From Iodobacter fluviatilis (GTDB taxonomy: Bacteria; Pseudomonadota; Gammaproteobacteria; Burkholderiales; Chitinibacteraceae), in the NCBI RefSeq assembly GCF_004194535.1, contig NZ_CP025781.1, forward strand, positions 3,658,001-3,722,000: 64,000 bases of DNA, in the 5' to 3' direction. Each line of letters begins with the position of its first letter. Position 1 is the stretch's first letter. The position numbers and the translations under genes were made by a program. Shown here piece by piece: positions 5,008-11,314 of this stretch. The notes under the pieces were generated by a model. That model saw only the letters and a list, made by a program, of their open reading frames with translations. It was not told the origin of the DNA and searched no databases.

Positions 5008-5125
5008 CAATGTTCGACGGCGGGTCTCCTCGCATAGCTAGAAGGTTAACTTGGTCAGGTCCGGAAGGAAGCAGCCACAGCTTTTGATGCTAGTGCCGAG
5101 GGTTAGGCTCGCCACCTCCCCTTTT
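5008..5125 (+). ncRNA. ffs: 4.5S signal recognition particle RNA
   Basis: The universally conserved SRP domain IV sequence GGTCAGGTCCGGAAGGAAGC begins at 5053, followed by AGCCACAG. Flanking arms can pair to give the long hairpin: the 5' arm near 5018-5033 (GACGGCGGGTCTCCTCGC region) with the 3' arm near 5096-5114 (CCGAGGGTTAGGCTCGCC). The transcript ends in CCTCCCC followed by TTTTT. It binds Ffh for co-translational targeting of inner-membrane proteins. The exact ends are estimated from the promoter and the T-run. Confidence 0.93.
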
Positions 5126-5239: not shown

Positions 5240-5253
5240 TTGATCTATATCAA
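5240..5253 (+). promoter_or_regulatory. perfect FNR/ANR-type binding site
   Basis: TTGAT-CTAT-ATCAA, a perfect match to the FNR consensus TTGAT-N4-ATCAA. Its centre (5246.5) lies 41.5 bases before 5288, the class II activator position. A weak -10 hexamer CAGAAT lies at 5276-5281. Confidence 0.6.
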
Positions 5254-5287
5254 TACACTAAATACACTTTTGCGCCAGAATGGCTGT

Positions 5288-5357
5288 CACGCGAGCTGAT
5301 GCTTCGTGTATCTCCAGTGGTAATTTTGCGCCGCGCACTGTCGCGGCGCTTTTTTTT
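5288..5357 (+). ncRNA. candidate FNR-activated small RNA
   Basis: The 293 bases between the SRP RNA and yciB contain a perfect FNR site followed at the class II distance by a roughly 70-base segment that ends in a strong terminator. The predicted RNA begins with a stem-loop (CACGCGAGC at about 5288-5296 pairing with GCTTCGTG at 5301-5308, with a bulge and one wobble pair), followed by an unpaired stretch containing TATCTCC, which could pair with Shine-Dalgarno GGAG sequences, and then the terminator hairpin. The layout resembles FNR-induced riboregulators such as FnrS in enterobacteria and AniS in Neisseria. Homology to either is not claimed; expression is inferred. Confidence 0.45.
5328..5357 (+). 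terminator. strong intrinsic terminator upstream of yciB
   Basis: Stem GCGCCGCG (5328-5335) with CGCGGCGC (5342-5349), a 6-base loop and eight T at 5350-5357. No protein gene precedes it closely; the nearest upstream gene is the SRP RNA, which has its own T-run. Confidence 0.85.
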
Positions 5358-5424
5358 GTCTTCATTTACTTGTTTTCGTAAAAATGGGTCAGCATAATGC
5401 GGCATCTATATTGCGACGATGCTG

Positions 5425-5982
5425 ATGAAAGCCCTTTTTGATCTCTTCTCCGTTATCCTATTTTTTGTAACCTACTCAATTACCAAAAGCATTTACGCTG
5501 CAACAGGGGTGGCTATTGCTACCACTACAGCGCAAGTGGCATGGTCTTGGTTTAAGCACCACCATGTTGACGCCATGTTATGGCTAAGCTTTGGCTTGAT
5601 TACCGTTTTGGGGGGGGCAACACTGCTATTGCATAACAAAATGTTTATTTTGTGGAAACCCACCGTTTTATATTGGGTATTTGCCGTTATTTTGTGTGGC
5701 TCTCGCTATCTACGCGGAAAAAACCTGATGCAAAAATTAATGGGTCAGCAAATGACGCTGCCTGACAAACTTTGGGATCGGGTTAATTTGGCATGGGTCT
5801 TGTTTTTTGTGAGTATGGGCATACTTAATCTCTTTGTTGCCTTTAATTTCCCTGAAGATTTATGGGTGAAATTTAAAATGTTTGGTACATTGGCGCTGAC
5901 ACTGGTATTTGTACTACTGCAAGCCTTTGTGCTTTCACGGTATCTTACTGATGATGTAGCAACAAAAAAGGAAGAGTCCTAA
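5425..5982 (+). CDS. yciB: inner-membrane septation protein YciB (IspZ family)
   Basis: A 185-residue protein with about five membrane segments and the family start MKALFDLFSVILFF. Typical internal motifs are WKPTVLYWVF and FRxxNE-region equivalents near LNLFVAFNFPEDLWVKFK. The family is involved in cell envelope and septation through an unclear mechanism. An ATG two codons earlier (5419) is also possible. A G8 run at 5610-5617 is in frame here, unlike G-runs in five other genes of the window. First gene of a four-gene unit, overlapping yciI by one base (TAATG). Confidence 0.88.
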   Translation: MKALFDLFSVILFFVTYSITKSIYAATGVAIATTTAQVAWSWFKHHHVDAMLWLSFGLITVLGGATLLLHNKMFILWKPTVLYWVFAVILCGSRYLRGKNLMQKLMGQQMTLPDKLWDRVNLAWVLFFVSMGILNLFVAFNFPEDLWVKFKMFGTLALTLVFVLLQAFVLSRYLTDDVATKKEES

Positions 5983-10942: not shown

Positions 10943-11314
10943 GATAAAAATTTCTTGTCTTGATAAGTTGATGCGGATTCTACCCTCAGTATTTTGTTTA
11001 GTATGTTGGATTAAGTACGTTTATTGATTGCTATCAATAAATAATTTTTCACAAAAATAAAAAATTATTAATATAAAATTTCAAATAAATAGGATATATG
11101 GATATTTTTTTAGATTTGCTGATTGTTTAGCGCATTTTTGTGAATTTTGGTAATTTATTGAAATACCGTATTATTTACTTTTTTGTTGTATATTTAACGG
11201 AGAGAGGAAAAAGCAACATCCCCCTGAAAAAAAAAGGGGGGGGGGGGGAGTAAGGCCTTATAGAATAAGACTTTGGGCGTGGTATGGGTGATGCAGATTG
11301 AAGCTAAATTTAGC
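10943..11314. other. AT-rich intergenic region upstream of the YheO regulator
   Basis: About 370 bases with no supportable gene. The part from 11040 to 11170 is very AT-rich. It holds a C5-T-G-A9-G13 block at 11220-11248 and presumably the promoter of the regulator and of sdaCA. No clear -35/-10 pair was picked. Confidence 0.5.
11220..11248. repeat. G13 homopolymer with preceding C5 and A9 tracts
   Basis: C5 at 11220-11224, TG, A9 at 11227-11235, then G13 at 11236-11248. The C5 and G-run can pair around an A-rich loop. The tract is intergenic, about 66 bases past the stop of the YdcF-type gene and 294 bases upstream of the YheO regulator start. Run length is unreliable given other G-run problems in this window. 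Confidence 0.7.

Follow-up and report, generated by a model that had tools for sequence, protein, structure and literature searches.

A putative FNR-activated small RNA gene beside ffs, conserved in Iodobacter and other Chitinibacteraceae

The window, i.e., the whole stretch of 64,000 nucleotides that was analysed (Iodobacter fluviatilis, contig NZ_CP025781.1, positions 3,658,001 to 3,722,000 of the forward strand), contains between the gene for the SRP RNA and that for a yciB-like membrane protein an interval, 5240–5357, in which an Rfam search at gathering thresholds found no family, ffs being the sole match. The features of the locus are the following:

5019..5116, plus strand: ffs (SRP RNA), the upstream neighbour, an Rfam match
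5240..5253, plus strand: FNR box TTGATCTATATCAA, centre 5246.5, at −41.5 from the predicted start
5276..5281, plus strand: −10 element CAGAAT, mostly CAnnAT or GAnnAT at the equivalent place in relatives
5288..5357, plus strand: predicted sRNA transcript of about 70 nt, matched by covariance model R1
5288..5308, plus strand: 5′ stem-loop CACG-C-GAGC-UGAU-GCUU-CGUG, z about −2.6 to −2.8
5297..5320, plus strand: 24-base invariant run TGATGCTTCGTGTATCTCCAGTGG, from an alignment of 22 copies
5308..5327, plus strand: mostly unpaired seed GUAUCUCCAGUGGUAAUUUU, of anti-Shine–Dalgarno type
5328..5357, plus strand: intrinsic terminator GCGCCGCG-CACTGT-CGCGGCGC with T8, a GC-rich stem of 8 bp
5419..5982, plus strand: gene for the yciB-like membrane protein, the downstream neighbour, with the name kept from an earlier reading

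That earlier, sequence-only reading had proposed an FNR-activated small RNA at this place, and most of its parts were found where it had put them. The perfect FNR box at 5240–5253 is present, as is the strong terminator with T8 at 5328–5357, and the class II distance holds, since the centre of the box plus 41.5 bases (5246.5 + 41.5) gives 5288, which is both the predicted start and the base at which the hairpin begins. The segment TATCTCC, which had been described as open, is there as well, but in the minimum-energy fold its UAUC pairs weakly with GGUA, and the most open part is instead CUCCAGU. Model R1 scored 95.6 bits on the sRNA of the window, whose sequence is itself included in R1, and the conservation seen by BLAST in other genera mostly starts at 5286–5290, near the predicted 5′ end.

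When the promoters of relatives were aligned, the only conserved parts were the FNR half-sites, the −10 element and the start of the RNA; no conserved −35 element was found, and the bases separating the FNR box from the −10 element are unconserved, which indicates selection to keep the box, beyond mere relatedness. The spacing was followed by scoring the best FNR-like site at each of 35 loci. In all 35, which are mutually related and hence not 35 independent tests, this site lay 64–71 bases upstream of TGTATCTCCAGTGG, and the class II geometry placed the start at most one base from the start of the hairpin; the maximum score (10 of 10) was attained in 30, and the observed score was reached by 0.8% of shuffled upstream regions. 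The RNA of Iodobacter is two bases longer at the 5′ end, with the box and the −10 element shifted along. Two loci of one genus (g4; L037 and L041) have a weaker box, TTGCGCCACATCAA, which counts against the explanation preferred below. An ordinary promoter overlapping the box (TTGATC-17-TACACT) was also considered and was rejected, being unconserved in relatives. The window holds two perfect FNR boxes, compared with 0.06 expected by chance. The second, TTGATTGCTATCAA at 11024–11037, lies upstream of a minus-strand gene for a YheO-like regulator, after which come genes like those for a serine transporter and a serine dehydratase, and an intergenic A run followed by a G run was seen at 11227–11250.

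By BLAST, the body of the sRNA was detected in 40 of the 43 Chitinibacteraceae genomes. The three genomes that were missed belong to one genus, and two of them have diverged copies at the same place between ffs and yciB, each with a full FNR box (TTGATCCCGGTCAA); no credible copy was found in the family genome G010. The invariant run of 24 bases extends across the aligned genera, and a 23-base sub-string of it recurs without mismatch in ten named genera (Iodobacter, Deefgea, Chitinibacter, Chitinilyticum, Chitiniphilus, Silvimonas, Jeongeupia, Formivibrio, Chitinolyticbacter and Amantichitinum). The 5′ stem is kept among relatives despite variation in the length of its loop, and at seven of the eight pairs of the terminator stem both sides have changed in a compensatory manner. 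Conservation in relatives, which had been named as a check on the proposal, was thus borne out, with the FNR box and the hairpins kept at fixed spacing in close and distant relatives. The same seed was found in a second family (f32; five genomes of three genera), preceded by an unrelated but perfect 5′ hairpin (CAGAAGGC...GCCTTCTG) whose stem is wholly different, and by an equally spaced FNR box, in gene neighbourhoods that differ from those of the Chitinibacteraceae. Matches of R1 with 22–32 bits elsewhere in the order were rejected; of those inspected, only the one in f51 has an FNR box, and the others are taken as chance terminators. A plasmid search for the sRNA gave no match, and a search of one literature collection turned up no paper on sRNAs of Iodobacter or Chitinibacteraceae.

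As far as sequence can show, the locus appears to be a free-standing and conserved sRNA gene that is driven by a class II FNR promoter, and the RNA of about 70 nt very probably acts in trans, being activated by FNR at low oxygen and blocking the translation of mRNAs. Under oxygen shortage, FNR carrying its iron-sulphur cluster would bind the box whose centre lies at −41.5 and, by class II activation, recruit RNA polymerase to a promoter without a good −35 element. The 5′ hairpin would then stabilise the RNA, the exposed invariant seed GUAUCUCCAGUGGUAAUU would present a complement to Shine–Dalgarno sequences of the type CCACUGGAGAU, and the U8 tail of the terminator would suit Hfq or ProQ; the A/U-rich end of the seed is typical of Hfq sites, and Hfq may bind there. 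Most likely, the sRNA would pair with the ribosome-binding sites of mRNAs that are unneeded without oxygen and block their translation. Such pairing is what we infer as the best candidate mechanism, because the anti-Shine–Dalgarno seed is invariant and because of the behaviour of FnrS and AniS.

The genes of candidate targets were named by inspection of their translations. In the genome of I. fluviatilis itself, matches to CTGGAGAT before an ATG include a doxX-like gene, with 12 complementary bases, and further sites were seen before trxA-like and trhO-like genes. Family-wide, CACTGGAGAT occurs before an ATG at 41 sites versus 4 for the reversed pattern, an excess of about 10-fold that is confounded and is no proof, because the pattern contains the Shine–Dalgarno core; the genes with such sites vary by genus (ndk-, sufE-, transporter- and ahpC-like). 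Among the sites examined, none showed independent cross-genus conservation of a seed-complementary Shine–Dalgarno site. The doxX site was tried as a conserved target and rejected: it is identical in eight of the nine Iodobacter genomes, yet the surrounding bases are equally conserved and it apparently falls in the last part of an upstream reading frame, so that its identity is no evidence. In one f32 genome (G117; L116, position 1501), a perfect antisense match to the sRNA seed, 20 bases long, was seen within GAATAACCACTGGAGATACA, about 248 bases ahead of a gene for a cioA/cydA-like oxidase. It is a target site or else what is left of a decayed sRNA copy; the sister genome G073 did not show the seed complement.

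Could the RNA be a very diverged homologue of the Neisseria RNA known as AniS in N. meningitidis and as FnrS or NgncR_094 in N. gonorrhoeae? This is a question of ancestry and is compatible with the function proposed above. Both RNAs have a box at −41.5, a 5′ stem-loop, no protein, an unstructured pyrimidine-rich region, a U-rich stretch and a terminator with about eight U (PMC3032703, PMC11912907), and in a lacZ fusion, lack of oxygen raised the activity of the gonococcal fnrS promoter 260-fold (PMC3032703). The Neisseria gene was located by its bacterioferritin-gene neighbours and FNR box, as in gonococcus (PMC3032703), its identity resting on place, box and AUG start and not on the published sequence, and all 46 Neisseria genomes yielded relatives of it. 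In most Neisseria (L122–L151), the 3′ core is conserved, and the place and the 5′ part are unlike the gonococcus-type copy beside bfrA/bfrB. Homology would also be favored by the motif ATCTC, present in both RNAs, and by a marginal match of an AniS covariance model (R2) in one f32 copy (L052; 16.5 bits, E 0.018). On the region of the window, however, R2 reached just 5.7 bits, through the terminator alone, and R1 found no match at the Neisseria loci. The Neisseria RNA moreover has a different invariant core, TTTCCTCTTGATGTGTGTGTGTTTGGGTGTGG, is 108 nt long in gonococcus and adjoins bfrA/bfrB; a core of the form TTTCCTCTTGATGTGTGTG was not found in the sRNA of the window. Descent from a common ancestor is accordingly unlikely, and the two RNAs share an architecture, with no common ancestry demonstrable.

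The motif TTGAY-N4-RTCAA is common to several Crp/Fnr-family proteins and not specific to FNR, and some copies of the sRNA have imperfect boxes, as might be expected if the RNA gene were real and its box mainly served another member of that family, e.g., a nitric oxide-sensing regulator of the Dnr type. This we consider quite improbable, as most of the boxes fit the FNR consensus and an FNR-like gene was found in 43 of 43 family genomes with an E. coli query sequence. The genome of I. fluviatilis has a single such gene at E ≤ 1e-30, whose product carries the CxxCx5C cluster motif together with a fourth cysteine and ETVSR in its recognition helix.

The proximity of yciB, which is on the same strand some 60 bases further downstream and comes after the sRNA in most genera, would suit a cis-acting leader or attenuator, with a transcription start at 5288 and hairpins that control read-through into yciB. 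Such a leader is very improbable. Although ffs is upstream in all Chitinibacteraceae loci examined, yciB was not found downstream in Chitinilyticum (L022, L024, L078), and the f32 loci have neither ffs nor yciB nearby, yet box, seed and terminator persist in both groups; the invariant portion of the RNA, furthermore, is the open seed, with no alternative pairing. As it persists where no yciB was found next to it, the sRNA is taken to be an independent gene acting in trans and not a yciB leader. That the locus encodes a very small protein (MLRVSPVV...) and not a functional RNA is scarcely credible: an ATG does lie inside the invariant core, but no Shine–Dalgarno site fits upstream of it, the third codon positions of the core are invariant, and the frame, which is the sole common reading in the interval, shifts or ends after 9–13 codons in several genera and lacks its ATG at that position in the f32 copies, in line with the earlier statement that no protein gene fits here.

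The sequence had not been recognised as FnrS or AniS in the earlier reading, and in the covariance searches too it was not FnrS and could not be recognised as AniS. On the window, RF01796 (FnrS, named frnS) did not attain its gathering threshold and was absent even at E ≤ 10, with 134.8 bits on E. coli fnrS as a positive control, and model R1 in turn did not match E. coli fnrS. Enterobacterial FnrS is, like the sRNA of the window, an FNR-activated class II sRNA with an intrinsic terminator, but its sequence is different. The best sub-threshold Rfam match was the Burkholderia sRNA ncS54 (RF02871; 27.3 bits versus a cut-off of 43), mostly by way of the terminator; its seed and hairpin differ, and we know of no link between ncS54 and FNR. 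The matches obtained at relaxed thresholds (ncS54, GcvB, anti-hemB) were rejected as terminator-driven. The sRNA makes up a family unnamed in Rfam and would belong to an already known kind, the FNR-activated class II small RNAs: the box lies at −41.5 from the predicted start, the −10 element stands without a conserved −35, the gene is free-standing and non-coding with a terminator and U tail, and FNR is encoded in the genome. A different sRNA candidate, with its FNR box at class II distance and an invariant core, CGCAGTTGGTTCGATGTAGTTTCTCCTCTATTTCTCCTTTGCAGACTTC, followed by a terminator, was seen in two f51 genomes (G173 and G271; L071 and L225). It may be, and we hold this tentatively, that FNR-activated riboregulators arose several times independently, the promoter and the hairpin-seed-terminator plan being kept while the seed is specific to each family (that of the Chitinibacteraceae and f32 RNA, AniS in Neisseria, the UUUCUCC type in f51, FnrS in enterobacteria) and the low-oxygen target sets are rewired. 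If the reading as an FNR-activated sRNA is true, oxygen sensing would be linked to translation by a well-delimited sRNA family throughout a family of environmental bacteria; the constraint on the seed is such that the target set should be findable, and comparison with AniS, FnrS and the f51 candidate would allow a direct test of homologous versus convergent low-oxygen sRNAs.
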